Shown: piece after piece, positions 12,872 to 56,526 of the stretch | How positions within the stretch are numbered: position 1 is the first letter of the stretch | Layout of the letters: every line of letters starts with the position of its first letter | Source of the DNA: a virus | Reading direction: 5' to 3' (one strand) | Virus record (IMG/VR): IMGVR_UViG_3300034158_000007 | Span: 62,001 to 126,000 of that record | DNA length: 64,000 nucleotides | Notes under the pieces: model-generated | What the model was told of the DNA's origin: nothing | Seen by the model: only the letters and a program-made list of their open reading frames with translations | The model's database searches: none | Made by a program: the position numbers and the translations under genes

Positions 12872-14365
12872 TTACCAAGGGAAAGTCGCAGATAGAATCT
12901 TGATCATTGGACGAACACCGCCACGACCAGAGGTCTTATTGAGTGTGGTACCTTGGTTACCCGGCGCTGTACCACCACGTGCCCACTGATCGTACGCACC
13001 GTTTTCCTGAGTGGTCCATTCGGCGTTATATAGTGCACTTGCCCCAAAGCCAACCGCATTGTCTGACCACTGCGCCAACATTGTAGCTGTATTGTTAACG
13101 TAGCTCTTAGCAATACGGTTGTACATGTCGTACCAAACAGTGCCGACACCATCGTTGTTATTCCGAGGGCCGTACCACATCATTGGAACTCCAGCTACAG
13201 TCTTGGCCGCACCGTTCGGGTTATACACGTAAGAAGAACTCAAAGGTGCGTTTACCATTAGAGGTTTCAATGGCATCAGCCAGATCTGACCACTGAATCG
13301 CATTACCGCCCAACTCAAACCTTCAAACTTCACAGTACCGCCACTAATCGATGTCAAGGTGCAGAACTCAGTACCCGAGTAGTACTCTTGGAAAGGAATA
13401 ACCGAGATAGGTGGAGGACCAGTCTTGACGTACGGGTTATAAACCCACAGCTCAGTGCCAGTAGTCGAACCAAGACAGTAGAACTTATTCTTAGCTTTAA
13501 ATCCACGGGACTCAGAGCTATTCATTAGGTCAGGTACCACACCAACATCATCGGTGTAGATATTGGTACGAGGTACGTAACGGGACATGTTCTTATTAGC
13601 ACCACGTCCACCGTAATAGAAGATCTCGTCGCCCATTAACATAACCTTAGCACCACTACGTGTACCAAAGTTGGTAACCACATCCGCCATCTTAACTGTC
13701 CATGTGTTTAGCACCTGGTCATAAGCTGAGATAGGTAAGTTTGCTGTCGTACCGTTGTTATATACACCGAATGCGGTAAAGATCAGATCGTCTTGAACAA
13801 TAGCCGAACCGTTAACTACTGGGTTAGCCATGGCAGCACATTTAGTCCAGACGTTAGTTACCATGTTGTAACGCATTACGTTGGCAGTGCCATTAACTGG
13901 AGCGTCACCATTAGCGCCACCCAAGATAAAGATATCTGAGCCCACGTTGGTCATCATGGCCTGTGCCGAACCTGGACGGTCTGCAACGGTCGCTGGGAGC
14001 GTACCAGAAGCCCAGGTGTTGTTGGAGATGGTGTAGATATAGAAACGCGTCGTGTACCCCAGAGCAGTGCTATAGCCGCCCCAGACATAAAGTTTCCCGA
14101 TACCCATCACACATCGATGCTCACGCATCGCAGTAGGCATGTCAGCTAACTTAGTGAAGGTCTGGGACGTTTGGTTGTACTTGTAAAAAGCCGCTGTCTC
14201 AGTGGCTGCAATGTTGTCGAATCCTCCAACGAAATAAAGATCATCCTTATAGACGGATACAGCTTGACCGCTGATACCCACCGGACCGCCCGCTACATCT
14301 AGCTTGGTCCAAACTGTAGCAGGCTTGGCACCTGCCCCTGCAAAACTCAGTAATAATTCACGCAT
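12872..14365 (-). CDS. kelch beta-propeller protein, likely tail fibre or receptor binding
   Basis: A 497 aa protein with kelch repeats over about residues 35-310. Each has hydrophobic strands, a G-G doublet (L-Y-F-V-G-G, L-Y-V-W-G-G, I-F-I-L-G-G, I-F-Y-Y-G-G) and a spaced Tyr/Trp (Y-N...W). The C-terminal 190 residues are a separate Gly/Asn/Trp-rich domain ending M-I-K-I-L-S-A-T-F-P-W. The short M-R-E-L-L-L-S-F-A-G-A-G head looks like a virion-attachment segment. Phage kelch proteins are usually fibres or adhesins that contact surface glycans. It is a single-gene unit with its own terminator, placed apart from the main fibre cluster, which fits an exchangeable host-range gene. Confidence 0.75.
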   Translation of the reverse strand: MRELLLSFAGAGAKPATVWTKLDVAGGPVGISGQAVSVYKDDLYFVGGFDNIAATETAAFYKYNQTSQTFTKLADMPTAMREHRCVMGIGKLYVWGGYSTALGYTTRFYIYTISNNTWASGTLPATVADRPGSAQAMMTNVGSDIFILGGANGDAPVNGTANVMRYNMVTNVWTKCAAMANPVVNGSAIVQDDLIFTAFGVYNNGTTANLPISAYDQVLNTWTVKMADVVTNFGTRSGAKVMLMGDEIFYYGGRGANKNMSRYVPRTNIYTDDVGVVPDLMNSSESRGFKAKNKFYCLGSTTGTELWVYNPYVKTGPPPISVIPFQEYYSGTEFCTLTSISGGTVKFEGLSWAVMRFSGQIWLMPLKPLMVNAPLSSSYVYNPNGAAKTVAGVPMMWYGPRNNNDGVGTVWYDMYNRIAKSYVNNTATMLAQWSDNAVGFGASALYNAEWTTQENGAYDQWARGGTAPGNQGTTLNKTSGRGGVRPMIKILSATFPW

Positions 14366-17530: not shown

Positions 17531-19753
17531 ATGAAAAACTTGAAATCTGTATTGAAAGCTTCTGCTACCGATAAACCAGTCTTCTCCATGGAAGGCTTCG
17601 TTGCATCCCTGAAGCTGGAAAATGATCTGGCCGATGGCCTGTTCTCTGTAGCAACTGCCGGTCTGGCAAAGACCATTGGTCTGGAATCCTTCGGTGAAGG
17701 TGAAGACAAACACGCTGCTTCGTCTGTGTACAAGCAACTGACTGCCCTGGCTACCAAGCTTGGCTTCGAACACTACATCTCCGAGAACCCACGCATCGCT
17801 GAGAACCAGCTGACTGCCGCATTCCTCGGTACCGTAGCTGCTGCTAACCCAGACCAGTACATCAAAGCACTTCGCGGTGTTTCGAAACTGATGCCTTCGA
17901 CTGAAAGCATTAAGTCCGTAGAACACAGCTTCAGTGGTCCAGCCGGTTCCGTACAGGTATTTGACGCTGAAGGCGCCAAGTCCATGGGTCTGGAAAACTA
18001 CAACGAGAAATCGCAACGTGACTTCCGTGTTGTAACCGTTGGTTATAACCTGGCTGCTTCCCGTCAGGACGAATTCTCCGAGCGGATCTACCCTACTACC
18101 GTTATCAACCCTATCGAGGGTGGTGTGGTACAGGTTCTGCCTTACATCGCCGTAATGAAAGACGTGCATCACGCTGTTAACGGTGCTCGCTGGAAGAACG
18201 ACGAAGTGAACATGGTAGAAGCATACCGTGATCCGTCGATTCTCGACGACAACGCAACTGATCTGATTCCTGCAATCAGCCCAGACGGCGTTAACCTGCA
18301 CTTCTTCGCTGACCCGGCTCTGATCCCTGCTGAGACCATCGTCAACGAACAAAACCTGTCGATTGAAACTGCGCCTCTGAAGCCTGGTATCAAGATCGAC
18401 CTGATGGGTAACTCCAACGCTAACATGCTGATCTCGGCTGGTATGCTTGAAGTTTCCGACTCGATCGACCCTGCTGGTCGTTTGAAGGCTCTGTACGTTA
18501 AGTTCCAAGGTAAAGTTATCAAGTTCAAAGTTGACCGCATGCCACGTGCTGTGTTCCAACCTGACCTGATCGGCGACACCCGTGGCGCTCGTATCGACTT
18601 CTTCACCGATGACCTGAGCGTAAGCTCGATCTCCCGTACTATCGATGGTGTTCAAACTGCTGCGATGCAAGAGCTGGAATCCCGTGAGTGGGTAATGCGT
18701 GTAAGCGTTGACTTCTCCGGTAACATCTCGCTGTCCCGTGGTGACTCCCGCTTCAATCCAGGCTCTGCCGAAATTGCTGCGATCCTGAACTCCGACCGTC
18801 GTCCTGTTGACATCACCACTGGTGCCGGTAAGACTCTGGTAGATAGCATCACCGATCTGGAAATCGTTGGTTTCGAACTGCATACTCGTTTCACCAACAC
18901 TAACCGTCGTCAGCGCGGTCACCTGTTGCAAACACGTGCTCTGCAATTCCGTCACCCTATCCCAATGCACGCGCCAGTAACCCTGCCGCTGAGCACCATG
19001 GATGAAGAAGGTCCAGGCGAAGTTGTTAAAGCTCTGACTGTTAACACCAACATCCGTAACAGCAACAACGCTGTTAAGACCCTGCTGAACTATCTGGCAC
19101 AGCTGAAGGAATTGACTGGTAACGGCTTCAACCGTCCTACCATCAACGTATACGAGGGTGCTCTGGCCGCAGTAATGCGTCCTACCTACTACTACGATAC
19201 CATGCACCTGCCAGACATGATCGATACCCTGAAGTCGAAAGACCGTTGGGACGACGTGTGCAGCGCGATCCTGAACAAAGTTAAAGGTCGTCTGTTCCCT
19301 GCGTACCGTGACTCGAACATCGAGGCAACATTCCGTGTAATCTCGGGCAACCAAGATGAGCGTCCAATGTTCCTGTTCTGCTCGGACAAAGAGATCGCTA
19401 ACTACCTGATGACTAAAGGCGACGACCGTACCCTGGGTGCATACCTGGAATACGACATCGTTTCCACTAACAACGAACTGTTCGACGGTAAGTTGGTAGT
19501 AGTTCCGACCCGTAAGACTCCAGCCGAAAACGACATCCTGTCCTTCGGTCAGTTCTTCTACGTGTCGACCATCATCGCCGACCTGCCGATCTCCCGTGGT
19601 GGTCATCAGATCTCCCGTGAAATCGCAGCCATCCCATTCAACCTGCACATCAACAACATTCCATTCGCACTGGAATTCGATGTAACAGGCTTCGAAGAAG
19701 TGATGGGTCACTCGATGTGGAACAAGCCAGTTGTTGACGGTCTGAATGCCTGA
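17531..19753 (+). CDS. major capsid protein
   Basis: A 740 aa protein whose large size, highly regular codon use (typical of abundantly expressed phage genes) and place in the operon fit the phiKZ-type HK97-fold major capsid protein. The N-terminal ~155 residues look like a pro-domain with repeated F-S-M-E-G-F / L-E-S-F-G-E-G / G-L-E-N-Y segments. Cleavage after G-L-E155, just before the N-Y-N-E-K-S-Q-R-D-F segment, matches the S/A/G-x-E rule of phiKZ-type prohead proteases. The mature part is rich in beta-strands. It builds the icosahedral shell. AGGAAAAC lies 5' of the ATG, and a terminator array follows the stop. Assigned by remembered similarity to phiKZ gp120-like proteins. Confidence 0.82.
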   Translation: MKNLKSVLKASATDKPVFSMEGFVASLKLENDLADGLFSVATAGLAKTIGLESFGEGEDKHAASSVYKQLTALATKLGFEHYISENPRIAENQLTAAFLGTVAAANPDQYIKALRGVSKLMPSTESIKSVEHSFSGPAGSVQVFDAEGAKSMGLENYNEKSQRDFRVVTVGYNLAASRQDEFSERIYPTTVINPIEGGVVQVLPYIAVMKDVHHAVNGARWKNDEVNMVEAYRDPSILDDNATDLIPAISPDGVNLHFFADPALIPAETIVNEQNLSIETAPLKPGIKIDLMGNSNANMLISAGMLEVSDSIDPAGRLKALYVKFQGKVIKFKVDRMPRAVFQPDLIGDTRGARIDFFTDDLSVSSISRTIDGVQTAAMQELESREWVMRVSVDFSGNISLSRGDSRFNPGSAEIAAILNSDRRPVDITTGAGKTLVDSITDLEIVGFELHTRFTNTNRRQRGHLLQTRALQFRHPIPMHAPVTLPLSTMDEEGPGEVVKALTVNTNIRNSNNAVKTLLNYLAQLKELTGNGFNRPTINVYEGALAAVMRPTYYYDTMHLPDMIDTLKSKDRWDDVCSAILNKVKGRLFPAYRDSNIEATFRVISGNQDERPMFLFCSDKEIANYLMTKGDDRTLGAYLEYDIVSTNNELFDGKLVVVPTRKTPAENDILSFGQFFYVSTIIADLPISRGGHQISREIAAIPFNLHINNIPFALEFDVTGFEEVMGHSMWNKPVVDGLNA

Positions 19754-20429: not shown

Positions 20430-21503
20430 ATGGAAAAAACCTTTTACGGGACTAAGCTGGAACCAGCGTATCACCTTGCAGAAAACCCTCTACCTCGAAC
20501 GCTGGCGTCCTTCCGTGATTTCAACGGAGTTCATCGTGGAGGGTTGACTACATCAACTGAGTTTGAAAACCAGTCCGGTAAGAACCTAACCATCCTAACT
20601 CCATTAGGGATGACGGTAACTTTACCGGCTAATACCCAATCCACTCGGAATACGTTGGTTATAACACACACGTTCTTAATAGGTCCCGAAGCTAAGTTTG
20701 ATTGGTCAACCATTATTACTAATGCACGGCCAGAAGACAAAGCTGTTCTTATTGAATTGTCGGAGAAGTTTAAAAGCCAAGAACCCTGTACAACGAGTCG
20801 TGAAGTAAAGCTATACAACATCGTAGAACTAACAGGTGTGGAGGGTTATAAGAACGGCATACTGATCGGCGAGTCTGGCTATCAAGTGGTGGCTACCGAA
20901 CATGCAGCTCTGGCTCAACCATTTGTGAAAGGCGTGATCGTTCCACAGCAGATCCTGTGCAGTACCTTAAATGAGCGATGTCATTCATCAATCACCACGG
21001 TGTACGAATATGTGGTCAACTATGCTGAGCGCGCAACACCTGTTTATATAGCTGGCCATAAGGGTACCTTCAATCAGCTTAAGCCTTGTGTTGATCCTCT
21101 ACGCGATGAGGGGATGTACATAACCACCTTTGACGACCAATCGGTTTCCTTAGGGCTCACTGCAACTGGTGAGTTGTTACAAGCACATCGTAACCGTGTG
21201 CACTATGTACCGCTTAAAGATTTCGTTGAATACGGTTTCTTAAAAAGCCCATCTGACATCCTTGAAGCATTCGGAGGTAAGACGCATGATAAGAAACGAA
21301 CTGACAAACTGTTAAAAGACTTCGAGGAATTTCTACGTTCTAAAACAGAGATACCTAATGACCGACGAAGACCATTCGCCGATCAAGTGTTTGATGCAGA
21401 TCTACATGGTTTTAACTTGAAAGACGTGGGGGAACTAGCTGTTAAGTTTGGTAAGTTGCTCAAAGATGTAAAAAGTGTGTTTAACGAAACGCGGAGCTTC
21501 TAA
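20430..21503 (+). CDS. hypothetical 357 aa protein
   Basis: A soluble protein with a beta-rich N-terminal two thirds and a charged helical C-terminus (D-K-K-R-T-D-K-L-L-K-D-F-E-E-F). It starts 29 nt after the frameshifted gene and is coupled to the polymerase-like gene by a TAATG overlap, suggesting joint expression. It may be a virion or transcription accessory protein; I recognise no domain. Confidence 0.6.
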   Translation: MEKTFYGTKLEPAYHLAENPLPRTLASFRDFNGVHRGGLTTSTEFENQSGKNLTILTPLGMTVTLPANTQSTRNTLVITHTFLIGPEAKFDWSTIITNARPEDKAVLIELSEKFKSQEPCTTSREVKLYNIVELTGVEGYKNGILIGESGYQVVATEHAALAQPFVKGVIVPQQILCSTLNERCHSSITTVYEYVVNYAERATPVYIAGHKGTFNQLKPCVDPLRDEGMYITTFDDQSVSLGLTATGELLQAHRNRVHYVPLKDFVEYGFLKSPSDILEAFGGKTHDKKRTDKLLKDFEEFLRSKTEIPNDRRRPFADQVFDADLHGFNLKDVGELAVKFGKLLKDVKSVFNETRSF

Positions 21504-23125
21504 TGGATAAATTTCTAATCAGCAAGATGTTGGATCATGTTAAACCATTTAACAAAACGCTTGCTGATGGTATTGCACTTGAACACCTGATGGGAGTTAA
21601 CTCGGCTGGCGTATGTAACCGTCGAGCGTATATCGATAAGCTGTGGGCAATCAACGCCTCTATGTTCCCTAAAGGGTTCAAGTATGAGGGTAGTGTTGTG
21701 ATGCGTCCAGAACGCATGTTCGATGAGATTACACGTGAGTATGGTTCGAAGCGCAATGCTAACATCGCCAAGACTAACTCTCGCATGATCGCACTGAAGT
21801 CAAGCCTTCACGGTGTACCACTGTTTGATCGCTATATCCTGATCCCGTTTGCAAGTCAGGGTGGTACCTGCCCTATTAACGGTGCAACGTATCAGATCTC
21901 TCCAGTTATGACCGACGTGGGTTACTCGGTACTCAACAACAGTATCTTTATTCCGTTCCAACGTGCCAAGCTTACATTCAAGCAGATCGATCATCACTAC
22001 GTGTGTAATGGTCAGCGTGAGATTAAGTATGTCATCTGGTCTCAGATTCACAACGAGATGGGTAAACGTACTAAGCGCGATCTCAACAACCGACCTTTCA
22101 TTGAATCATGCCTCGCGCATTACTTCTTCTGTGAATACGGTGTAAAGGAAACCTTTAAGCGTTGGGCTAATACCGACGTTGAGATTGGTTACCTCAAAGA
22201 CCTCGATCCAGTTAAGTTCCCTCGCGATGAATGGAACGTGTTCCAGTCGGCTACTCTGACTGGTAATCACCCAACTGGCGAAATGGCAATTGCTGTTCCT
22301 AAGTCTGCGAACTCCGAGTTTGTGAATCGTTTGATCGCAGGCTTCTGGTATGTGGTTGATGCTTTCCCTGCTCGCTTCGTAGAACCGCACTACATGGATT
22401 CTAAGGATCTGTGGCGCATCATCCTAGGTCTCATGATCTTCGGTGACTATGAGCACCAAGGTAAGCTGGCTGAGAACATCGATGCTCACCTGACCTCCTT
22501 CAATAACTATCTCGATGAGATGACCATTAAGGGTTTGGGTAGCGTGGGCATTAAAGTCAACACGATCTGGGAGCTACTGTACCTGATCATGACTGACATG
22601 GCACATCACCTCTACGATACAGACATCGATGAAACCAGTCTATGGTCTAAATCACTGAGCGTGCTTAAGTATGTATTCGATGACCTGAACTATGCTATCA
22701 CCATGTTCGGCTATTCGTTCCAGTCTCGACTGAACAAAGACTGGACGGCTCAAGAGATCAATGACGCTATGAAGCGTTCATTCAAACTGAACACGTGTAT
22801 GCGTAAGCTTACTAGTGAGCACGGCGAATTTGATACCGTGAGTTATCCAGGTGACAACAAAGCAATCAAGCTTACATCGATTGTAGTACCACAAGACAGA
22901 GCACGCACCAAGGGCGGACACAACAAGTCCTTGATCGGTGACTCCAGTCGATTGATTCACGTATCCCTTGCAGACGTGGGTCAGTTTAAGAACCAACCGA
23001 AGAACAACCCGGATGGCCGTGGTCGGATTAACCTGTATACGCCAATTGGTCATGATGGCCTGATTCACAGACGTGAAGAAGATCGTGAACAACTCGATGC
23101 AGTGCAAGCGCGTTTCAATCGATAA
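21503..23125 (+). CDS. probable RNA polymerase beta subunit, N-terminal half (non-virion RNAP)
   Basis: A 540 aa protein. Residues about 134-180 contain S-P-V-M-T-D-V-G-Y-S-V, resembling the P-L-M-T-x-x-G-T-F segment of bacterial beta subunits, and later N-G-Q-R-E-I-K-Y-V-I-W-S-Q-I-H, resembling N-G-x-E-R-V-x-V-S-Q-x-H. Near the end, R-K-L-T-S-E-H-G followed by V-V-P-Q-D-R-A parallels the R-R-L-S-A-L...C-P-I-E-T-P-E-G stretch that closes the beta N-half. phiKZ-type phages have beta and beta' split between separate genes, and I recall its beta-N gene (gp123) lying just after the capsid gene, as here. The polymerase would transcribe middle/late genes. Partner subunits should lie outside the window. 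Motif match is distant. Confidence 0.6.
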   Translation: MDKFLISKMLDHVKPFNKTLADGIALEHLMGVNSAGVCNRRAYIDKLWAINASMFPKGFKYEGSVVMRPERMFDEITREYGSKRNANIAKTNSRMIALKSSLHGVPLFDRYILIPFASQGGTCPINGATYQISPVMTDVGYSVLNNSIFIPFQRAKLTFKQIDHHYVCNGQREIKYVIWSQIHNEMGKRTKRDLNNRPFIESCLAHYFFCEYGVKETFKRWANTDVEIGYLKDLDPVKFPRDEWNVFQSATLTGNHPTGEMAIAVPKSANSEFVNRLIAGFWYVVDAFPARFVEPHYMDSKDLWRIILGLMIFGDYEHQGKLAENIDAHLTSFNNYLDEMTIKGLGSVGIKVNTIWELLYLIMTDMAHHLYDTDIDETSLWSKSLSVLKYVFDDLNYAITMFGYSFQSRLNKDWTAQEINDAMKRSFKLNTCMRKLTSEHGEFDTVSYPGDNKAIKLTSIVVPQDRARTKGGHNKSLIGDSSRLIHVSLADVGQFKNQPKNNPDGRGRINLYTPIGHDGLIHRREEDREQLDAVQARFNR

Positions 23126-27489: not shown

Positions 27490-28365
27490 TCAGTTATAGT
27501 GAAGGAGCAGATAACCTGCCACGTTGTTAGATACGATACCCAATTCCAATACCACAACATTCAAGATGTCCGTGCGTGGAGAATAACGGGGTAACACTCG
27601 GCCATTGTAAACCACCCGGATACGACCCTCGCCTTTATCGGCATCGAACGCAAGGTTCCAATCGACTAGGTCCTTACTGCACACCCATGGTGTACCAGTT
27701 ATGTCTTGCACGATAGCTGCCAGCTTACGACCTGTAGGCCACACTGAGGCACGCGTTAATACTTTTAGGTACTCACGCTCACTGGTGAAGTCATAACCTG
27801 CTGTAACGTACTGTGCGGAGATCTTAGCCCCATCTGGGTTACCAAGTGGCCAGGTATTAGCCAAAGGGAACTCAAACTGACTAGATACCTCGGACAATGC
27901 ACGGCGGGTAGTGTTGATCAAACGGAAATCAATTTTCCCTACGAATCGCAACGACTTGGGATTAGCAGTCAGCGTAAAGGTTTCGTTGTAGGTATTGTAT
28001 TCAACATGAACGAAGTCATTCAGGGTAAATACGATCTCATTAAACTCACCGATAGCAGCCAGTACCTCAGCAGTATTAGTTGGAAGTGTAAAGCCTGGAA
28101 GATCCTTAACTCCAAACGAACGGAAGAAAGTCTGTAGATCCAAACGGTCGTAGACATACTCCTTACGTTCGATCGGTGGGGCTGTGTTAAACTCATTCTC
28201 AACCTGATTAGGGATAATCACCACTTGCGTGCTGGTCGTCCCTAGTGGTACAAACGATTCGAGTTTAGTGGAGTACGGCTGTAGCTCAGTACCGTACTGT
28301 TCATTGATACGTGCGATAATCGCGTCCCAAGGGTCAGCCTTTAAATAGTCGCGGGTTAGAAACAT
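27490..28365 (-). CDS. hypothetical 291 aa probable virion protein
   Basis: An acidic N-terminus with L-E-S-F and a long beta-rich remainder, no enzyme motif. A strong GAGAGGT site precedes the ATG. It starts 2 nt after the large 723 aa gene. Its general look and operon are those of a tail or baseplate component; not demonstrable from sequence alone. Confidence 0.55.
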   Translation of the reverse strand: MFLTRDYLKADPWDAIIARINEQYGTELQPYSTKLESFVPLGTTSTQVVIIPNQVENEFNTAPPIERKEYVYDRLDLQTFFRSFGVKDLPGFTLPTNTAEVLAAIGEFNEIVFTLNDFVHVEYNTYNETFTLTANPKSLRFVGKIDFRLINTTRRALSEVSSQFEFPLANTWPLGNPDGAKISAQYVTAGYDFTSEREYLKVLTRASVWPTGRKLAAIVQDITGTPWVCSKDLVDWNLAFDADKGEGRIRVVYNGRVLPRYSPRTDILNVVVLELGIVSNNVAGYLLLHYN

Positions 28366-28367
28366 GA

Positions 28368-30539
28368 TTACCTCTCAAATTTAGGCCATTGTGGATCAGA
28401 TGATTCTTCGTAGAATTCGAGATCACCATCTGGATCGGTAGTGCGACTCTCAACAATACTCACTGCACCTACACCGATGTTACACACAGGCATTGGATAC
28501 GCATGTTCCTTGAAGCTAGTCTCGACGATGTTAACGCATGGGTCAATCCACCAAGTACCACTTTGTTTGTACGACCAACTAATGTTAGGTTCAATCAAAG
28601 CGTCAGGTAACCTGATCAAAGACATACCGCGCGCACCGATGTCACGCACATTGATGTTAACGATGGGTACAACTTGGGTTTCACCAGAATGGGCAGACAT
28701 GTCACCAAGACGTGGCATGACGATACCCAATACGTGGAACTTAGTGAACTCAACGTTACGTAGGTACTGTGCGATGTAGCTGGACATCCTCGACATCAGA
28801 CGAAGCAGTTCACGTTGTACTTCACCCAAGGTAATGATCTTAACCAAGTTAGCCCCAGTAGCGATGTTGATCGCATCCAAACACAGCTGCTCCATTTCTG
28901 GGTTAGACATGTCGGTGATCTTGAAACCTTGTTGACGGAAGTAGTCATCCCATGTGGTGTTATCTGGTACCAGTTGACATACCCGATTCATGTAGTGCAT
29001 TCGAACGACTTGCTCACAGTAAGCACGTGACACCATGTGCTCTTGGAAACTATAGAGTTCCCACTGCTTCAGGTAACGTGAGTGAACACCCACACAGTCC
29101 AGATAGAACTGCTCGGTCGAGATGTACTGACCCATCGGAGGGGTCAAGTCTTGAATAGCCGTGATCACTTCATTAGTAATCAAACGTGTAGGAGCAATCT
29201 TGCGAAGTTCCATAAACGTGGGCGACTTATTCAACAGTACATCGTAAGCAATAAACCTTGGGATCACATCTGTTAACACGCCACGGGATTTCATCCAGCA
29301 GTACATAGTTACCAGATAGGCATCCTTCACGGACATCGTCATGTTCTCGCCCGTCTTAGGGTTAGGGATCTGAACGAAAGCCCTGTAGCGATCACTGGAG
29401 GCAAGTTGCAACCATTCATTGAGTAGTACGTGCTCAAGGCTACGAACGTTGGATACAGAGCGGTCAATAACCTCGGAGTCGTATACCCGTGTAGGTAAGA
29501 TACTCGACTTACTGTAACCCATGTCCTGCATGATCTCCCGTTCGGTATCAAACTGAACCAATGGGTTATCACGTGCCAGCAGTTGTTCACGTTCCAGAAT
29601 GGTACTAACTGGAACTTGCGCCAACCCATCTTGAACCACATTGAAGTTAACGTCGTGTTTGACCATCTCAACATGAGCAAGGTTATCACGAAGCATATTC
29701 GTCGAGTTCTGATTCAAGGTGTACTTCAACAGAGGAATACCACGGTGAGTCAGAATGTTCTGAACCAATCGTTGGAAGGTATCCTTACTACCAGCGTGAC
29801 GTTGCAGGAAATTGATGTTCCGATACAACCACAGCATCTGGAAGGTGTCCAGATAGGGGATGAAGTCGTCTAGGTGCTCGTGTGAGGCCAAGTACTCACG
29901 AATGTGATACGAGTGGGCGTTGTTGGTCTTAGCCTTCGCCAGACGCATTGCAAGGATCGCAGGGACCATACGCGAATAAAGGTTACCGAGATAAGCTGCG
30001 TGAAAAAGATCATCCACGATGTTAAATTGATCGTTATACCACCGAATATAGAAAGCATTCACCCAATCCTGTAGATCGTAAATGAACGTATCTTCTTGCG
30101 CCTCAACGTATTTCGGATCGTGATAAAGAATCTTACCGTCCTCAGCATCGATAGCTGTTTGAATATCGATCGGATAAAGGATGCCTGTAATTAGGTCAGC
30201 CTGTGTCGGATACTGTCGCACCAAGCTCTTATAAAGGATGCTACCCGGATAGTACTCACGTGCTGTTGCCCGATGGATGGCTAAGTTAGCTTTGGTGAAT
30301 TCGATCATCTCGAGTGTATCGGCGGACTTAACGTACATCATGACATCAGTCGAGTGATACTCACCCGCCAAGTGCATGTAGTACTTCCATGTTGTTGGCT
30401 CGTTCTGGTCAACCTCGAGTCCATCAAATTGTAATAGACGGGCATTTATCTGGTCAGCGGTTTCGCTGTACTTAATAATAACTGACCGTACCAATTTGAT
30501 GATATCATCGCGATAAACGTCGAAATACACGTTGTTCAT
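28368..30539 (-). CDS. large 723 aa probable baseplate/tail protein
   Basis: Start at 30539 (ATG with GAGTATCTTAC ahead). A long, mostly helical protein rich in Tyr, Met and Arg in the central part, with a beta-rich end (about residues 600-700) and an acidic tail. It is divergent from the portal-like gene with only 35 nt between the start codons, so the two are presumably co-timed late genes. Size and placement match a baseplate wedge-like component of jumbo phages. No motif proves this. Confidence 0.5.
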   Translation of the reverse strand: MNNVYFDVYRDDIIKLVRSVIIKYSETADQINARLLQFDGLEVDQNEPTTWKYYMHLAGEYHSTDVMMYVKSADTLEMIEFTKANLAIHRATAREYYPGSILYKSLVRQYPTQADLITGILYPIDIQTAIDAEDGKILYHDPKYVEAQEDTFIYDLQDWVNAFYIRWYNDQFNIVDDLFHAAYLGNLYSRMVPAILAMRLAKAKTNNAHSYHIREYLASHEHLDDFIPYLDTFQMLWLYRNINFLQRHAGSKDTFQRLVQNILTHRGIPLLKYTLNQNSTNMLRDNLAHVEMVKHDVNFNVVQDGLAQVPVSTILEREQLLARDNPLVQFDTEREIMQDMGYSKSSILPTRVYDSEVIDRSVSNVRSLEHVLLNEWLQLASSDRYRAFVQIPNPKTGENMTMSVKDAYLVTMYCWMKSRGVLTDVIPRFIAYDVLLNKSPTFMELRKIAPTRLITNEVITAIQDLTPPMGQYISTEQFYLDCVGVHSRYLKQWELYSFQEHMVSRAYCEQVVRMHYMNRVCQLVPDNTTWDDYFRQQGFKITDMSNPEMEQLCLDAINIATGANLVKIITLGEVQRELLRLMSRMSSYIAQYLRNVEFTKFHVLGIVMPRLGDMSAHSGETQVVPIVNINVRDIGARGMSLIRLPDALIEPNISWSYKQSGTWWIDPCVNIVETSFKEHAYPMPVCNIGVGAVSIVESRTTDPDGDLEFYEESSDPQWPKFER

Positions 30540-47106: not shown

Positions 47107-50100
47107 ATGGCTGATCAAAAGCAAGCAGGTATGATCTCTGGTATGTCGCCACTGGCGGTCATCACCGGCGACGAACTGATGGAAGTATCCAGCCGTCAGG
47201 TTGACGGTACCTGGAAAACATTTTCGATCTTGATCAACAAGATCCGTACTAACCAAGGTCTTTCTGCGTATGAAGTAGCGGTGGTTAACGGCTTCACCGG
47301 CACCCAAGCAGAATGGTTGGAATCTCTCGTAGGTAAATCAGCGTATGAAATCGCTGTTGACCTAGGCTTCGTAGGTACTGAAGCTGAATTCATTGCATCA
47401 CTCGTCGGTCCCTCCGCTTATGATGAAGCTGTTAAAGCTGGCTACAACGGTACTGAAGCTGAATGGCTAAAGTCGCTGGAAGGTAAGTCCGCTTATCAGC
47501 TCGCAGTCATCAATGGCTTCGTAGGCGATGTAACCGCATGGCTGAAGTCTTTGGAAGGTAAGAACGCCTACCAGATCGCTAAGGAACTCGATCCAACGAT
47601 CGGTACTGAAGCTGAATGGATTGAATCCTTGGCTGGTGCATCTGCATACGACGTGGCCGTAGAAAACGGTTTTGTTGGTACCCAAGAAGCCTGGCTGACC
47701 TCCCTCCAGGGTAAGTCCGCTTACCAAGTATGGGTTGCACAAGGTAACACCGGTACTGAGGCAGATTACCTTCTGTCCCTGAAAGGCCAAGACGGTACTA
47801 ATGGTACCAATGGTAAGTCTGCTTATCAGATCTGGGTTGACGAAGGTCACGTAGGTGATGAGGCTGCATTCCTGCTGTCTCTGAAAGGGACTGATGGCGT
47901 TAATGGTCTTAGCGCATACCAAGTCTGGGAAGCCCAGCCCGCCAACACCGGTAAAACTGAAGCACAGTTTATCACTGCCATCACTGGTAAAAACGGTACT
48001 GACGGTGAGTCTGCTTATGAGATCTGGGAATCTCAACCGGGTAACACCGGTAAAACAGAACTGGAGTTTCTGGAGGCTATCACCGGTAAAGACGGTAAGT
48101 CTGCATATGACCTGTGGGTAGCGGTACCAGCAAACGCTGGTAAGTCCGAAGCCGAGTTCTTGGAGTCCTTGAAAGGTAAGGATGGTACCAACGGTACTAA
48201 TGGCCAATCGGCATATGAACTGTGGGAATCTCAACCAGCTAACTCCGGTAAATCGGAAGCTGAATTCCTGACTTCTTTGGAAGGTGATTCGGCTTACCAA
48301 GTGTGGCTGAATGAAGGTAACGTTGGTGATGTAGCCGCCTACCTGCTGTCGCTTAAAGGTCAGATCGGTGCAGACGGTAAGTCCGCTTATCAGGTATGGC
48401 TTGATGCTGGTAACGTAGGTACTGCCGATGCATTCCTTCTGAGCCTCAAGGGTGAGAAAGGTAAAGACGGCACCAATGGTACTAACGGTACCAATGGTCA
48501 GGCTATTAATATCATCGCAACGATCGATCAGGAACAATTTGATCAAATCGTAGCTGACAACCAATCTGTTGTTGGTGACGGTTACATCGTCGGTGATATC
48601 TTCCAGCTGTTGGGCGAAGATGGTTGGGTTCCTTCCAATCCTATCGTCGGTCCTGCTGGTAAGGGTCTGAACTATCTGGGTACCTGGCCAACTGGTGGTG
48701 CTCTGCCACTGGGTCCTACCTTCGTAGCTGGTGACACTTACATCTGGGGTGCTACTGAAGATAAGAAGTCCCTGTGGACTCTGATCGAAGCTGATCCTGA
48801 TAAAGGTATCGTACAGCACTGGGTTGACATTGGTGTACCGGGTCCTCGTGGCGCTTCGGCATACGAAACTTGGCTCGCTCTACCGGGTAATGCTGGTAAG
48901 CCTGAGGCCGACTTCATCGCCGCCATCAAAGGTGGTAAGGGTGATACCGGTCTGACTGGTCCTGATGGTAAGTCTGCCTTCGTGGTGTGGCAAGAAGAAG
49001 CGGGTAATGCCGGTAAGACGGAAGAAGAGTTCTTTGCCTTCCTGACTGGTAAGTCTGCTTATCAAGCCGCCGTTGATGGTGGTTTCACTGGTACCCAACC
49101 TGAGTGGCTTGAATCGCTGAAAGGCGAATCTGCATACCAACTCGCGGTTGAAGGTGGTTACACCGGTACACAGGTTGAGTGGATCGCATCCCTCCACGGT
49201 AAGTCTGCTTATGAGATCGCTGTAGCTGGCGGTTACGTAGGTACTGAAGTACAGTGGGTCGCCTCGCTGAAAGGTGAGAAAGGCGAAGCTGCTATCGCTT
49301 TCGAAATCATCGCTAAGCTGACCGATGTTAGCGAACTCCCGAAACCGGGTGACCCTACTCGTGCGTATTACGTTGGTAAAGATCTGTACGTTTGGATCGA
49401 TGCTGAAAACGACTACGAGAACATGGGTGCCTTGGATGGCCAATCAGCTTACGAGCTGTGGGTAGCACAACCGGGTAATGCTGGTAAAACTGAAGCACAA
49501 TTCCTGCAATCTCTGCACGGTAAGAATCTTCAGGTTCTGGGTACCAAAGCTAACGAAGCTGCTATTAAGGCTATCGTTGATCCAGTTGAGCAAGATGCAT
49601 GGCTCGCTGCTGACACTGATCACCTGTGGATCTTTGCTGGTGGTACGTGGATCGATGCTGGTAAGTTTGGTGGTGACAACGGTAAGTCTGCTTACGAACT
49701 CTGGGAAGAGCAAGCTGGTAACGTAGGTAAGACTGAGCAAGAGTTCTTGGACTCCCTGAAAGGGACTAACGGCACCAATGGTACTAACGGTACCAATGGC
49801 GAGTCCGCCTACGAGTTGTGGGAATCTCAACCAGCTAACACTGGTAAGTCTGAGACCGAGTTCCTCCAGTCGTTGAAAGGTACTGACGGCACTGACGGTA
49901 AATCAGCTTACGAGCTGTACGTTGATGGCGGCGGTCTCCTGACTGAACCTGAGTGGCTCCTGTCGCTTAAAGGTAAGGATGGCGTTAACGGTACCACCAC
50001 TAGCTATAAAGGCGCTCTGCCGACTGTAGCTGACCTGACTCCATACGTTGCAACTGCACAACTGAACGATGCGTACTCCATCACTGCTACTGGTGATCTG

Positions 50101-51750
50101 CACGTGTTCAACGGTACCGCATTTGTGAACATGGGTCGCTGGCGTGGTCTGGATGGCACCAACGGTACTAATGGTACCAATGGTCAATCTGCTTACCAAG
50201 TGTGGCAGACCATCCCAGGTAACGAAGATAAGACGGTTACGGAATACATCGCTTCGCTGAAAGGCGCAAACGGTCTGAGCATCAATCCGAAAGGTAATGT
50301 TGCTAACGTAGCTGCTCTTGACGCTATCAACCCTAAAGTAACCAATGACGCTTACACCGTTAACGATACAGGTCACCTGTTCGTTTACAACGGTACCGCG
50401 TGGATTGACTTCGGTTACATGCGTGGTGCTGATGGTCTCCAAGGTTCGGTAGGTCAGGGTCTGAACATCGTAGCTCAGTACGAGCTGTTGAGTGAACGTC
50501 CTGCCGCTGACACACTGGCAATCGGTGACGCAGTGTTTGTGGTTGAAACCCACATGCTGTATCAAGTAAACGATGCTGGCGTTTGGGGTCCAGGTATCCT
50601 GATCCAAGGTCCTGAGGGTGAAGAAGGTCCAGAAGGTAAGCAAGGTCCGATGGGTCCAGCGGTTAACATCGTTGGTACTTACCCTGACTTGGCTGCCCTG
50701 CAAGCCGCACACCCAACAGGTGTGGTTGGTGATGGTTACCTGATCGTTGGTGATCTGTGGCTGTGGAACGAAACTGATGCAGTGTACTACAACGCTGGTA
50801 ACATCAAAGGTCCTAAAGGTGACGACGGTCCTATCGGTAAGACAGGTCTGAAGGGTAACATTGGTCTGACTGGTCCACGTGGCTCCGTATGGATCTACCT
50901 GCCAGCTGGTCAACAAGCTCCGACTGCCATTAACGGTAAAGACGGTGACTGGGCTATCGCTGACGGCTTCGTGGTGTTCTACCGTTCTGGTGACATCTGG
51001 ACTCGCTTCGGTGTACTGGCTCCAGGCGGCGTAGAGTCTCCTGACGTTGCACTGGGTCGTGTAGTCCGTCTGGGTAACCAGTGGGTTGCTGAATCGGTAC
51101 CGGCTGTTACAACTCCAGTAGTTGATAAACAGTACGTCATGGTTGGTATCGCTGGCGGTAAAACAGAATGGAAAGAAATTACCATTCCTGCATCGGGCGT
51201 GCCTGATGTACCTGCTAACACCACCATTCCACAAGCCCGTACTTCCGCTGGCTGGGTTGCCACCGTTCCGACCATCACTGGTTTGACCGCTGGTAAACGC
51301 TTCGAGTTGAAAGATGGTGCGTGGGTCGAGTCGGTTATCCAAGTTGCAGTTGGTGCAAGCACTAAACCACAGGCTTACAAAGTTACTGGTGGTGTAGGCT
51401 CATGGGTAGATGTATCGATCGACACCTACAGTCTGGTGATCAACACCACTGCGTCGACTGGTACCTTCACACCAGACTTCACTGCACAGCAAACCTTCCG
51501 TGTTGGTACTGGTACTAAACCTACCATCAACCTGACTGCATTTACCACCGGGCGTTCCATGCTGGCGGTATTCGTATTGGAAGGCGCCACTAACAAAGCA
51601 GATTTCATTGCTTCGGGTGCTGGTTCCGCTGTTGCGTTCAACGCTGGCGTAGCCGCCGCTGACATTGAGTACGGTGCTAGTCAGACCGTGATCACTGCCT
51701 TCTGGAACGGCTTCGGTACTTGGATCATCTCTAAGGGTCCTTCGTACTAA
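47107..51750 (+). CDS. 1547 aa repeat-containing long tail fibre
   Basis: The longest gene in the window. It carries about 24 copies of a 24-36-residue unit with the core x-S-A-Y-x-x-(A/W)-V...G-T-E-A-E-W-L-x-S-L-x-G, spread over about residues 45-1050. Many are followed by short collagen-like runs (G-T-N-G-T-N-G, G-P-K-G-D-D-G-P-I-G). The unit is familiar from phage fibre shafts. Several N-D-A-Y-x-V/I...G-x-L-x-V-F/Y-N-G-T-A domains interrupt it. The last ~200 residues are a unique Thr/Val-rich beta domain, probably the receptor-binding tip. The N-terminal ~40 residues should attach to the virion. Repeats at DNA level make the gene prone to recombination and misassembly. Confidence 0.85.
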   Translation: MADQKQAGMISGMSPLAVITGDELMEVSSRQVDGTWKTFSILINKIRTNQGLSAYEVAVVNGFTGTQAEWLESLVGKSAYEIAVDLGFVGTEAEFIASLVGPSAYDEAVKAGYNGTEAEWLKSLEGKSAYQLAVINGFVGDVTAWLKSLEGKNAYQIAKELDPTIGTEAEWIESLAGASAYDVAVENGFVGTQEAWLTSLQGKSAYQVWVAQGNTGTEADYLLSLKGQDGTNGTNGKSAYQIWVDEGHVGDEAAFLLSLKGTDGVNGLSAYQVWEAQPANTGKTEAQFITAITGKNGTDGESAYEIWESQPGNTGKTELEFLEAITGKDGKSAYDLWVAVPANAGKSEAEFLESLKGKDGTNGTNGQSAYELWESQPANSGKSEAEFLTSLEGDSAYQVWLNEGNVGDVAAYLLSLKGQIGADGKSAYQVWLDAGNVGTADAFLLSLKGEKGKDGTNGTNGTNGQAINIIATIDQEQFDQIVADNQSVVGDGYIVGDIFQLLGEDGWVPSNPIVGPAGKGLNYLGTWPTGGALPLGPTFVAGDTYIWGATEDKKSLWTLIEADPDKGIVQHWVDIGVPGPRGASAYETWLALPGNAGKPEADFIAAIKGGKGDTGLTGPDGKSAFVVWQEEAGNAGKTEEEFFAFLTGKSAYQAAVDGGFTGTQPEWLESLKGESAYQLAVEGGYTGTQVEWIASLHGKSAYEIAVAGGYVGTEVQWVASLKGEKGEAAIAFEIIAKLTDVSELPKPGDPTRAYYVGKDLYVWIDAENDYENMGALDGQSAYELWVAQPGNAGKTEAQFLQSLHGKNLQVLGTKANEAAIKAIVDPVEQDAWLAADTDHLWIFAGGTWIDAGKFGGDNGKSAYELWEEQAGNVGKTEQEFLDSLKGTNGTNGTNGTNGESAYELWESQPANTGKSETEFLQSLKGTDGTDGKSAYELYVDGGGLLTEPEWLLSLKGKDGVNGTTTSYKGALPTVADLTPYVATAQLNDAYSITATGDLHVFNGTAFVNMGRWRGLDGTNGTNGTNGQSAYQVWQTIPGNEDKTVTEYIASLKGANGLSINPKGNVANVAALDAINPKVTNDAYTVNDTGHLFVYNGTAWIDFGYMRGADGLQGSVGQGLNIVAQYELLSERPAADTLAIGDAVFVVETHMLYQVNDAGVWGPGILIQGPEGEEGPEGKQGPMGPAVNIVGTYPDLAALQAAHPTGVVGDGYLIVGDLWLWNETDAVYYNAGNIKGPKGDDGPIGKTGLKGNIGLTGPRGSVWIYLPAGQQAPTAINGKDGDWAIADGFVVFYRSGDIWTRFGVLAPGGVESPDVALGRVVRLGNQWVAESVPAVTTPVVDKQYVMVGIAGGKTEWKEITIPASGVPDVPANTTIPQARTSAGWVATVPTITGLTAGKRFELKDGAWVESVIQVAVGASTKPQAYKVTGGVGSWVDVSIDTYSLVINTTASTGTFTPDFTAQQTFRVGTGTKPTINLTAFTTGRSMLAVFVLEGATNKADFIASGAGSAVAFNAGVAAADIEYGASQTVITAFWNGFGTWIISKGPSY
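47260..50250 (+). repeat. tandem imperfect repeat array inside fibre gene
   Basis: DNA-level repeats underlying the S-A-Y units, in which phrases like GGTAAGTCTGCTTA and ACTAACGGTACCAATGG recur many times. The GTACCAATGGTAC-type stretches encode the N-G-T runs. Two sub-types are visible: a shorter one with A-V-x-x-G-F-V-G-T and a longer one with W-E-S-Q-P-x-N-x-G-K. Confidence 0.8.
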
Positions 51751-51794
51751 AGACAACATATTGCCCCTCCTCACGGAGGGGCTTTATGCCGTTA
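51751..51794. terminator. bidirectional terminator, copy 2 of a 44-bp identical repeat
   Basis: Identical over 44 bp to 33349-33392, with stem GCCCCTCC/GGAGGGGC and loop TCAC. It again lies between convergent genes, including the downstream minus gene's stop codon. Confidence 0.9.
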
Positions 51795-52595
51795 CTCAGG
51801 AATCAGTTCAGACTCTTCTGGAGTTAAGTCAGCTACTTCCTCGTCCTTAGTGCTTGGGAAAGCTGGACGATCAGCGCCATGAACGTTAATCACGCTGAAG
51901 TAACTAGCGTCGATCCATTCAAAGTCCATGTGGATAAGTTTCTCAAAACGGAAAGCATCCAAGATGTATTGCTTCGCTTGTGGCGTCATCTTACTAACGT
52001 CAGCTTCAAAGATCGTAGGACCAATGAAGTTAAAGCAGTTCATCCGTGCTTTACCTAAACCCACAGCATGAGTCTTAGTCCACTCCCCGAATTCGTACAT
52101 AATGCATGCAGCGAAGTTCTCGTTCATGAAGTCAGGCGTAAGCTCCACCAACGGTACAGAGATCATTTCAACCTCTGTCATCGAACCGTAGAAGTAATGC
52201 ATGATTGCCCGTACAGATTCGATACCATCTGGGGTAAGTTCGTATGGCCAATAGTTAACCACCAAACTAACGGCGTCGTCTGGTTCAGACATTTGGTTCA
52301 TCTTGTTAACTTGGTCATCCGTCAGGAGTCGCATGATGAATGGCGTTATGTTAGTACGGACCGAATGTTGTAAGGTATCGTTAGTGTTACTACCCCCACG
52401 TTCTTTATAAGCCGTGTTGAACTCCTCGGTCGTGATCTTACCATGGGTCAATACATCCCAGTTATCATTCTCACGCGTCCAGTAGTCATTAGTCTCTAGG
52501 AGCTTCTTAGCGACGTCCGGATCTAATCTGGCAATGGTGCCAAGGCGCGTGTCTAAATGAATGTCTAGGGGTGTCAGGATTCGTTTAAGCCCCAT
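51792..52595 (-). CDS. hypothetical 267 aa protein
   Basis: An acidic protein with a helical N-terminus and a longer mixed domain containing several Trp, Met and Tyr, then an acidic Glu/Pro tail (E-E-V-A-D-L-T-P-E-E-S-E). It is the last gene of the operon reading leftward from the RecA-like gene. It overlaps the preceding gene by 11 nt. Unknown function. Confidence 0.58.
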   Translation of the reverse strand: MGLKRILTPLDIHLDTRLGTIARLDPDVAKKLLETNDYWTRENDNWDVLTHGKITTEEFNTAYKERGGSNTNDTLQHSVRTNITPFIMRLLTDDQVNKMNQMSEPDDAVSLVVNYWPYELTPDGIESVRAIMHYFYGSMTEVEMISVPLVELTPDFMNENFAACIMYEFGEWTKTHAVGLGKARMNCFNFIGPTIFEADVSKMTPQAKQYILDAFRFEKLIHMDFEWIDASYFSVINVHGADRPAFPSTKDEEVADLTPEESELIPE

Positions 52596-53073
52596 CTTTA
52601 GCCCCCCTGCCTTTACCCTTAGGTATTAATGTCGATAGATACGCATTAACTACCCGCATATTGGTAGCCGCGTACATCAAGAAGAACAGCCAGTAGTTAT
52701 TCAACAGGACTTGTTCAAGCTCTGTATGCTCTACTGCTTTCTTAAGCGTCTCGTTATCCACAATGGCAGTCTTGTTAGTGAATGGAACGAAAGCACCCAC
52801 GAACTTCTTAATAGCCACATCAATGTCGTCGATTGCTTGTACAAAGGTTGCGGTCGTAGTCATCAACGTTTGGATATTAGAGGTTACATTACGTAACTTA
52901 TCCCACACGTGTTTCTCAGCATAGTCGTCAGTCATCATAATGAGATTCAGGTCACCCCGAATCTCAGTAATGGTGTCAATCAGTTTATGCGAGTGCGCTA
53001 CGTCCTCAGCGTTGAACAGTTCATCCAAGGCTTCAACCAAAGCTTCTTTAAGCTGGTTGTTGAGGTCTGACAT
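52585..53073 (-). CDS. hypothetical 162 aa helical protein
   Basis: Almost entirely helical, with Leu/Ile heptads and an acidic first half, then a hydrophobic segment (Y-W-L-F-F-L-M-Y-A-A) near residue 130 and a basic tail (K-G-K-G-R). A membrane association is possible. It follows the 224 aa gene by 2 nt. Confidence 0.55.
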   Translation of the reverse strand: MSDLNNQLKEALVEALDELFNAEDVAHSHKLIDTITEIRGDLNLIMMTDDYAEKHVWDKLRNVTSNIQTLMTTTATFVQAIDDIDVAIKKFVGAFVPFTNKTAIVDNETLKKAVEHTELEQVLLNNYWLFFLMYAATNMRVVNAYLSTLIPKGKGRGAKDGA

Positions 53074-53075
53074 AG

Positions 53076-53750
53076 TTACACCAAGTTGTTATTCAAGTGC
53101 TGAGCTTTGAGATATACCGAAAGGGTCTTGTTAGACTTAACAGTACTATCGAACTCAGTCATGATGGAGTTAATTGAAGCTTCACCAGTTTCAATGATGG
53201 AGCGGTTCATAGCGAGGTAAGCTTGTTCATCACCACCACGACATTTGATCATCTCACGGATCATGTCATGCAAACCTTTCGATGCGTTCACCTGAAGCTC
53301 AGGAGCCGACAGACGAGCACCTTTCGAGTCACCGGTAGGTTGGCCTGTACGTTGGTCTACAACGTGGTTAGACGAGGGGATAGAAGCCTTCTTGACCAAC
53401 ATCTGTACCTGACGGCGGAAAGGAACGATACCCACAAGGTGTTTGTTCGCAGTACGGTACGTTTGGCCGGTTTGTTGGTCGGTGAGAATCACGTGCTGGA
53501 ATAGATCGTATTCCAGTTCATCCGCAATCGCGTAGATGGTATTCATCTGAAGCGTTTGCTCTTGGAGGTTCGGCGCGAAGAGAGCCATGATTTCAGAATC
53601 ATCCTCCAGTCGCTCGATCCATTCCAAAAAGTCTTTATCTGTCATGGATGCAAACATCTCCTCATACACCTGAGGGTTTGCAGAGCCTGGAAGGAATTTA
53701 CTAATCCAATAGATGGCTTCCTTCTCAGCCAGTTTTCTGTCATTAGCCAT
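53076..53750 (-). CDS. 224 aa protein resembling the RNA polymerase beta C-terminal region
   Basis: Helical N-terminal ~90 residues are followed by a stretch with the order of the bacterial beta-subunit C-terminus: D-Q-Q-T-G-Q, V-G-I-V, Q-R-T-G-Q-P-T-G, G-A-R-L-S-A-P-E-L-Q-V (compare G-G-Q-R-F-G-E-M-E-V), then a helix like L-Q-E-M-L and C-R-G-G-D (compare K-S-D-D). The similarity is by eye and distant, so it is a hypothesis. If right, it would be a short extra RNAP subunit or a beta-clamp mimic. A GGAGG site precedes the ATG. Otherwise unknown. Confidence 0.35.
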   Translation of the reverse strand: MANDRKLAEKEAIYWISKFLPGSANPQVYEEMFASMTDKDFLEWIERLEDDSEIMALFAPNLQEQTLQMNTIYAIADELEYDLFQHVILTDQQTGQTYRTANKHLVGIVPFRRQVQMLVKKASIPSSNHVVDQRTGQPTGDSKGARLSAPELQVNASKGLHDMIREMIKCRGGDEQAYLAMNRSIIETGEASINSIMTEFDSTVKSNKTLSVYLKAQHLNNNLV

Positions 53751-53776: not shown

Positions 53777-54082
53777 TTACTTAACTAGAGCACCATAGAT
53801 CGGGGCTACGTTTGTATCGGTGCAGCTTGGTAGACGCTTCTTAACGAGGTACGGAAATACCTTAGCTACGAAGGTGGTATGCCATTGGTCGAAATCCTCT
53901 GTAACCAACAGCGCAGCTCGAAGATCCATGGTATTACCCGGATACTGAGCCAACAACCCATGGAAGTAACTATTCAACTGGGCTACATCCTGACACTGAC
54001 CCATACGTCGGTAAAGGTCTTCGGTTAACTCTACATCTTTCCCTCTCAGGGAACACAACAGTTTCATTTTCAGGTCGGTCAT
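53777..54082 (-). CDS. hypothetical 101 aa protein
   Basis: Small helical protein with basic N-terminus, member of the operon below the RecA-like gene (9 nt after the 115 aa gene, 26 nt before the next). No motif recognised. Confidence 0.55.
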   Translation of the reverse strand: MTDLKMKLLCSLRGKDVELTEDLYRRMGQCQDVAQLNSYFHGLLAQYPGNTMDLRAALLVTEDFDQWHTTFVAKVFPYLVKKRLPSCTDTNVAPIYGALVK

Positions 54083-54091
54083 AAAAAATAC

Positions 54092-54439
54092 CTATTTTAT
54101 CTCACCACGGTAAATAGCCTCCGTGTGCTTAATAAGGAATTGGACAAGTAGATGGCGATGGCAGAATTTGCCGGGTGGACAATAACAGCCAACAGCCAAG
54201 AGTTCTATATTGAATAAGTCTCGGAAGTATTCTGGGTATTCCAGTAATCGAGACTCAAGGAGTTTGTTATACTCGATGGCGTAGTCTTCGTCGGAAAGTC
54301 CATGGTACTTATATGCTGACAGTAACTCCCATGTGGGAGCGAGCATCCAGTCACCAGACTTAATGCTCGTATCCATGTAGGGTACGCCCCGATCCTTTAC
54401 TTTGTGGACACGGGATAATTGGTACGTATGGACTTGCAT
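54092..54439 (-). CDS. DUF488-like protein
   Basis: 115 aa ending with V-G-C-Y-C-P-P-G-K-F-C-H-R-H-L-L, the cysteine-rich C-x-C-x-P-G-x-x-C-H-R signature of DUF488/DUF4326-type phage and bacterial proteins. The first part has Trp/Tyr-rich strands. The family's biochemical role is unknown; the conserved Cys/His cluster suggests metal or thiol chemistry. It sits 3 nt from the upstream gene in the RecA operon. Confidence 0.6.
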   Translation of the reverse strand: MQVHTYQLSRVHKVKDRGVPYMDTSIKSGDWMLAPTWELLSAYKYHGLSDEDYAIEYNKLLESRLLEYPEYFRDLFNIELLAVGCYCPPGKFCHRHLLVQFLIKHTEAIYRGEIK

Positions 54440-55077: not shown

Positions 55078-56526
55078 TTACTTGGTTTGGGTAGCAGCGC
55101 CTTTAGCAAGGGCGAGAGGAATGATCTTAGCTTTATCTGCATCGGACATCCAGTAAGGTTTGTAATCGCCTGTGCGCATGCGCAGGAGATCGTAGGTGGA
55201 CAGGAAGTTCTTCTCGCTCAAGTGTGCGTCTTCTTCGAACATCCAATAACCGCGAGTTTTAGTCAGGATAACATCCCAATCATAACCCATTGCTTTCAGG
55301 TCTTCGTACAGTTCTTTTGGAGTACACACTTGTTCGGCGGTCCAACGTTGGAACATGATCAACTGAAGCATTTCCGATTGGATCTCTACGGCACGACGCA
55401 GTGCAGGAGTTTCATCAAGTTTCTTACGCACTACGGTACGACCCAACTTAACATCAGGGCACAGCTCAACGTAGTAGTTGATGTTGTTACCACCGATACC
55501 CCAACCTGCTTCTTTGCAGTAGTCGAACTCAGACAGCGATGGCAGCAAGCCTTCAGTTTGAGAAACGATCAGGTTGAATGGTAGACCAGTGATACCACCT
55601 TTACCACGCAGGTTCTTAATCTCCAATACACGGAGGTCAGAGTCACCTTGAATAGCGGTAGAGTTGTCCAGTGGGTAGACAGGCATCTTCTCTTTGTTCA
55701 GCATAACCTTGTTGGACATGATGTCCCACACGTTGTTAGGCAGTGAATAGAAGCCAGACGATACACCTTTCAATACGGTGTCACGTTTCATCTCACTGAG
55801 GTTACGCTTATCAGTTGGATACATCTCCATCTGAATGATGTCACCAACGTGAGCGGTCAGGATCATGTAAGTACCAGTCTTGGCACATACCTGAGGCAGT
55901 TGGTTGAACAACTGGTTCTTAGCCTTACCGTTGGTCATTGCGTCAGTGTTGTTACCAGAAGCGCCGATGGCGTTCTTCTCGTACATATCAGCAACAGCGG
56001 TAACGATGAACTTAGAGAAGCTATCGATGAAGCCGGTAGTTGGATACAAGCACTTCTTGTTATTACCGTTGATATCCAAGAAAGGAGTAGAACGGATATG
56101 CGTCTTAGCATCCTTCTCTTTCTCAGTCAATGCGGTACGGAACAGTTTAAAGAACTCATCACCGGTATAACGGGACAAGTCGGTAAATACGAACTGCTCA
56201 TCGTTTTCCCAATCGATACTACCCAGTTCCTCAATGGCTTTAGCCAAAGACGAGAAACGCTGTACAGGGTTCAGTGTACCCTCTGTATCGTAGATGAGTG
56301 AGTAACTGCCTGGGTGGGCTCGACGAGCCATAGCGATCATGTAGACGCCCAGAGCGGTCTTAAAGTTGTTTGGTCGGGAAGCGATACCAGTCAGCGAACC
56401 GAGGCCGCCGTTCATGATCATCTCACCGTGCTTTCCCTGCTCGTACTTACCGGTGGGAATATCCATCATACAGCCGATGTTCAGTGCTGGCCGGAAAGCA
56501 GGTTTCTCAAAATGGTTTGCGAACAT
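55078..56526 (-). CDS. RecA/UvsX-like recombinase
   Basis: 482 aa with a RecA-type ATPase core. A P-loop-like G47-I-A-S-R-P-N-N-F-K56-T57 lacks the second glycine. Y-S-L-I-Y-D-T-E-G-T (residues 74-83) supplies the catalytic Glu region, and Y-M-I-L-T-A-H is Walker B-like. A long C-terminal domain extends to A-A-T-Q-T-K. In phiKZ relatives the equivalent RecA-like protein (gp152) sits next to a virion protein gene, as here (56634). It would load on single-stranded DNA and drive strand exchange in recombination-dependent replication and repair. Starts 107 nt from the divergent plus gene. Confidence 0.78.
   Translation of the reverse strand: MFANHFEKPAFRPALNIGCMMDIPTGKYEQGKHGEMIMNGGLGSLTGIASRPNNFKTALGVYMIAMARRAHPGSYSLIYDTEGTLNPVQRFSSLAKAIEELGSIDWENDEQFVFTDLSRYTGDEFFKLFRTALTEKEKDAKTHIRSTPFLDINGNNKKCLYPTTGFIDSFSKFIVTAVADMYEKNAIGASGNNTDAMTNGKAKNQLFNQLPQVCAKTGTYMILTAHVGDIIQMEMYPTDKRNLSEMKRDTVLKGVSSGFYSLPNNVWDIMSNKVMLNKEKMPVYPLDNSTAIQGDSDLRVLEIKNLRGKGGITGLPFNLIVSQTEGLLPSLSEFDYCKEAGWGIGGNNINYYVELCPDVKLGRTVVRKKLDETPALRRAVEIQSEMLQLIMFQRWTAEQVCTPKELYEDLKAMGYDWDVILTKTRGYWMFEEDAHLSEKNFLSTYDLLRMRTGDYKPYWMSDADKAKIIPLALAKGAATQTK

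Follow-up and report, generated by a model that had tools for sequence, protein, structure and literature searches.

An ortholog of phiKZ gp149 as the separately encoded C-terminal piece of virion RNA polymerase beta in a jumbo phage related to 201phi2-1

Phage phiKZ has a virion RNA polymerase (vRNAP) that contains gp178, gp149, gp180 and gp80, and a non-virion polymerase (nvRNAP) made up of gp55, gp68, gp71-73, gp74 and gp123, in which gp149 is not included (PMC8287921). From infected cells, phiKZ gp149 was pulled down with Gp180, Gp178 and Gp80 (PMC10612078), and the host RNAP is not used in infections of this type (PMC7598289). The SPN3US ortholog, gp218, was named beta-C, is packaged in the head and was found to be essential by means of an amber mutant; in its absence the prohead takes up none of the vRNAP subunits (PMC5105663, PMC5694885). 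Orthologs have been found in virions and co-purify with other vRNAP subunits (PMC10612078, PMC5694885). The C-terminal extension of beta is described as a separate protein in vRNAPs (PMC7824862), a scheme of N-beta and C-beta has been drawn and an HD fusion reported in Bacillus phages (PMC7598289), and the split of vRNAP beta is already in print (PMC5105663, PMC7824862, PMC7598289). A rearrangement for ejection has also been proposed for SPN3US (PMC5694885).

The window analysed here spans 64,000 bases (62001-126000) in a viral record of 134,615 bases, which is probably a fragment of a genome. Its source is a jumbo phage of the phiKZ type, with 201phi2-1 and Viktualia among its relatives. The major capsid protein in the window is of the phiKZ type (PF25620, E = 1.6e-218), and the gene order tracks that of 201phi2-1 gene by gene, as with the DnaB-like helicase, the capsid and the nvRNAP beta-N genes. 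Over a 12.3-kb stretch tested, the top nucleotide similarity was to Pseudomonas phage Viktualia (74% over 38% of the stretch), with Pseudomonas phage 201phi2-1 at 72.5% over 29% of it. Two other genes of the window are recorded here for their own sake. A 497-aa Kelch-repeat protein (12872-14365, minus strand; Pfam Kelch_KLHDC2, E = 1.4e-19) is encoded between the positions of gp193 and DnaB, and 201phi2-1 has nothing comparable annotated there; a Kelch propeller seems unusual in a phage. Where 201phi2-1 has its gp230 tail fibre, the window encodes a 1547-aa protein (47107-51750, plus strand) made of numerous degenerate 'KSAYELWVAQPGNAGKTEAEFLESLKG'-type repeats, some of them followed by collagen-like GTNGTNG stretches.

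The gene under study is a minus-strand ORF at 53076..53750 with an ATG start and a product of 224 aa. By PHROG assignment, sequence identity and a profile match to RpoB we annotate it as the vRNAP beta-C gene, ortholog of phiKZ gp149, 201phi2-1 gp233 and SPN3US gp218. PHROG 3233, 'RNA polymerase beta subunit', matches the protein end to end (residues 1-223, E = 2.9e-92). A tblastn search of 50,697 phage records found relatives in 274, of which 272 match along 80% or more of the query, and the hosts of these phages include Pseudomonas, Erwinia, Salmonella, Vibrio, Serratia, Aeromonas and Klebsiella; the best-ranked annotated relatives are 201phi2-1 gp233, phiKZ gp149 and PhiPA3 gp172. The frame stands alone in 63 loci from viral contigs (median 225 codons, longest open frame 292), among which no fusion of beta-C to beta-N was seen. 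The longest frame belongs to a relative on a viral contig (6001-6666), and its 292 codons, set against the family median, may reflect an N-terminal extension or a start-site artefact. One record, Pseudomonas phage MIZ-Pa99 (PV472050.1), is filed under Straboviridae yet encodes a phiKZ-type vRNAP beta, annotated as separate ORFs; its taxonomy line looks wrong.

The neighbourhood of the gene is conserved. Downstream on the same strand lie homologs of phiKZ gp148 (52585..53073; PHROG 16245, E = 6e-52), in the same gene order as in phiKZ and 201phi2-1, and of gp147 (51792..52595; PHROG 3328, E = 3e-64), also supported by synteny. Upstream, again on the minus strand, are a gp150 homolog by position (53777..54082; PHROG 6181, E = 4.5e-23, with synteny), a small gp151 homolog two genes away from beta-C (54092-54439; Pfam DUF488-N3a, E = 1e-7, above the curated cut-off) and, in the same-strand cluster, a UvsX-like recombinase homologous to phiKZ gp152 (55078..56526; PHROG 97, E = 6e-56, with synteny). 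The order gp147-gp148-gp149-gp150-gp151 ... UvsX ... gp153-gp155 is identical in phiKZ, 201phi2-1 and the window, the counterpart of this block (phiKZ gp147-gp155) in 201phi2-1 being gp231-gp240, and an RNase H gene also belongs to the set of neighbours whose order is conserved.

A sequence-only reading of the window had noticed a likeness of this small protein to the extreme C-terminus of RNAP beta and had proposed a profile comparison with that part of RpoB. Searched as a single sequence, the 224-aa protein gave no match in the PDB and none in Pfam (up to E = 1) or NCBIfam. A profile of 17 diverse family members (A2) was then compared with 177,635 distinct PDB sequences, and RpoB C-termini were its only significant matches, the best being E. 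coli beta (E = 2e-5), with profile positions 34-193 colinear with E. coli 1162-1315; Thermus beta was matched at 968-1072 (E = 0.006). Adding one more distant member gave an 18-member profile that matched RpoB at E = 5e-5. A broader profile of 53 mostly metagenomic members (A3) did not reach RpoB in the PDB at E <= 10, its only matches being designed repeat proteins (E >= 0.12). The similarity of the family to RpoB is thus real but, because A3 missed it, faint.

All motifs named in the sequence-only reading fall in register with E. coli beta, and the likeness was borne out. T94-G95 aligns with E. coli T1217-G1218, and G107, of the VG motif, with G1228. QPTG aligns with QPLG (Q137/Q1257, G140/G1260) and GARLSAPE with GQRFGEME (R146/R1269, E151/E1274), E151 being invariant in the family. 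IREM aligns with LQEM (E166/E1289, E166 likewise family-invariant) and GGD with SDD (D174/D1297). Further positions in register are the family-invariant K121 (K1242), G159 (G1282) and the invariant G189 (G1311), while Q116, family-invariant, occupies the position of E. coli H1237. The idea that the protein is an unrelated virion protein with a chance resemblance to beta could draw on the empty single-sequence searches of PDB and Pfam and on the failure of A3, but for two profiles the only significant matches are RpoB C-termini, colinear over 150 residues, and independently published HHpred and biochemical work agrees with them (PMC5105663, PMC10612078), so that we regard coincidence as exceedingly improbable. 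An AF2 model of the isolated protein had moderate confidence (pLDDT 76.7, pTM 0.47). In a Foldseek search of the PDB with this model, RNAP beta chains took ranks 1-14 with weak scores (best E = 0.013, none <= 0.001), as would be expected when a segment folds against beta' and the remainder of beta; the predicted fold is supportive rather than decisive.

The point at which beta is divided can be read from the partner chain in related phages. A profile of the C-terminal part of vRNAP beta-N from eight phages maps to E. coli beta 659-836 and 1032-1130, two blocks that a further comparison also recovered, and the lysines in its GDK and (N)QMK motifs line up with K1065 and K1073. In the beta-C family, E. 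coli 1162 falls at profile position 34, which places the first residue at about 1129. Neither a large gap nor a large overlap is thus left between beta-N, ending near 1130, and beta-C, starting near 1129; as judged from the beta-N sequences of related phages, the two appear together to rebuild beta. The first 33 residues have the right length for beta 1130-1161, yet no sequence alignment was obtained there. The suggestion that the protein carries a helical N-terminus of its own ahead of a segment starting near 1240 finds no backing here: homology to beta already begins at about 1162, and the 33 residues ahead of it fit a start at 1130 by length, if not by alignment.

This junction bears on another proposal of the sequence-only reading, that the protein acts on its own, imitating the clamp anchor of beta to control host or phage polymerase, and is not a structural subunit. 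Such a role would suit a small, separately encoded protein, and the beta-C genes are not adjacent to other polymerase genes. In the relatives, however, beta-N stops where beta-C starts, and a core polymerase without beta-C would miss this region. Orthologs are found in virions and co-purify with vRNAP, loss of the SPN3US ortholog strips the particle of all vRNAP subunits (PMC5694885, PMC10612078), and phiKZ-type infection is independent of host RNAP (PMC7598289). The mimic finds no support in these observations, and we consider it hardly credible.

It was also conceivable that the protein is the C-terminal piece of nvRNAP and not of vRNAP, as the 540-aa nvRNAP beta-N is encoded within the same window (21503..23125, plus strand). 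This protein is a homolog of phiKZ gp123 and 201phi2-1 gp203: its tblastn relatives are annotated as polymerase or non-virion RNAP subunit, its position and size are those of gp203, and gp203 itself is annotated 'similar to phiKZ gp123'. The same contig, however, encodes an nvRNAP beta-C of 703 aa (17638-19740 of the full contig record; 80% identical to 201phi2-1 gp129), whose RpoB homology extends over its residues 384-580 and is followed by 120 more residues, so that the catalytic block and a C-terminus of its own are in one chain. In the phiKZ type, nvRNAP beta-C (gp71-73) has the catalytic DPBB lysines and the C-terminus in a single chain, whereas the 224-aa protein is confined to the part of beta beyond E. 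coli ~1130. Because nvRNAP has its own complete beta-C in the contig, the 224-aa protein is not the missing end of that enzyme, and gp149 is absent from the published phiKZ nvRNAP (PMC8287921); we rate membership of nvRNAP as very unlikely. An hhalign comparison of the beta-C family with a five-member nvRNAP beta-C alignment gave an insignificant match (E = 0.1, 33 columns) in the expected register, probably because the nvRNAP alignment was too narrow. The structure prediction together with the 540-aa protein that had been suggested would accordingly pair subunits of different enzymes. A full beta-C encoded elsewhere, which had been named as grounds for abandoning the RpoB reading, does exist in the 703-aa protein, but it belongs to nvRNAP and leaves that reading standing.

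Among the genes for other vRNAP subunits, that for beta'-M was found at 28250-29587 of the full contig record (78% to 201phi2-1 gp139). A search for the beta'-N gene in the 134.6-kb contig was negative; the 201phi2-1 genes for beta-N, beta'-N and beta'-C are located at 193-203 kb, past the stretch covered by the contig, and the missing beta'-N is expected of a fragment.

We conclude, with a probability of about 0.96, that the 224-aa protein is the separately translated beta-C (about E. coli 1130-1342) of vRNAP, which would assemble into the packaged and injected early-gene polymerase. The orthology, the RpoB C-terminal homology, the split point in relatives, the gene order and the presence of a beta'-M gene in the contig were computed here. 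The literature on orthologs establishes virion location, complex membership and essentiality, with presence in virions and in the active complex published for those of phiKZ, 201phi2-1 and SPN3US, and these properties presumably extend to the window phage. In the proposed scheme, beta-C would assemble with a long beta-N (ortholog of 201phi2-1 gp273/274), which has both catalytic lysines and stops near E. coli 1130, and the complex would be completed by beta' in three pieces, beta'-N, beta'-M and beta'-C. The assembled vRNAP would be packaged in the head, then injected with the DNA, and would transcribe the early genes without host RNAP. By analogy with cellular RNAP, beta-C may take the place of the bacterial beta region that anchors the clamp, gives it its shape and touches the hybrid at its active-site end. 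A more speculative idea, which we think improbable, is that beta-C is kept separate on purpose as the last piece to dock, so that vRNAP could be dismantled or unfolded to get through the tail tube and then reassemble inside the cell; if this were true, gp149-type proteins would act as a switch for assembly and be more than a passive fragment. The locus in this way touches on how a multisubunit polymerase is packaged and injected, a question already posed in the literature.

Compared with the bacterial RpoB C-terminus (E. coli 1130-1342), the phage version has colinear motifs over 1162-1315 but is a separate chain. In the Bacillus jumbo phages AR9, PBS1 and BpSp an HD domain is fused ahead of beta-C (PMC7598289), whereas the window protein has no HD domain. 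The beta-C of BpSp is the same segment, aligning to family positions 3-133 and then, downstream, to 137-222. As a separate observation, the HD/beta-C gene of BpSp is interrupted (KT895374.1, extracted locus 109300-113600, with pieces at 59-1174 and about 2366-2713 of that locus): positions 3-133 end the ORF gp148, and 137-222 resume ~1.2 kb downstream in another ORF. Between the pieces lies a 305-aa ORF with CapR, DUF4379 and DUF2726 domains, and no Rfam family was matched; the interruption looks like an intron or other mobile insertion.

SPN3US gp218 is of the same family, more divergent and with an N-terminal part slightly shorter than that of the window protein; full-length homologs in its close relatives, the Salmonella phages SPAsTU and SPFM2, are ~32% identical to the window protein. 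The product of 201phi2-1 gp233, recorded as 'identified as virion protein by mass spectrometry', is 86% identical end to end in the same gene order, with no substantive difference. phiKZ gp149 (PHIKZ149), whose record carries the label 'structural head protein', also has 224 aa, shares 60% identity over residues 5-224 and has the same neighbours; apart from ordinary ortholog divergence it does not differ substantively. The sequence-only reading had taken a separate piece of this size to be a finer split of beta than in phiKZ, a premise that needs correcting: phiKZ gp149 is this very protein, with an identical position in the gene order, and its split is published. That a C-terminal piece of RNAP beta is separately encoded here holds, on the 224-aa ORF, PHROG 3233 and the match to RpoB 1162-1315; as a vRNAP beta-C it is a real but ordinary instance of an arrangement already known in phiKZ and hundreds of its relatives.
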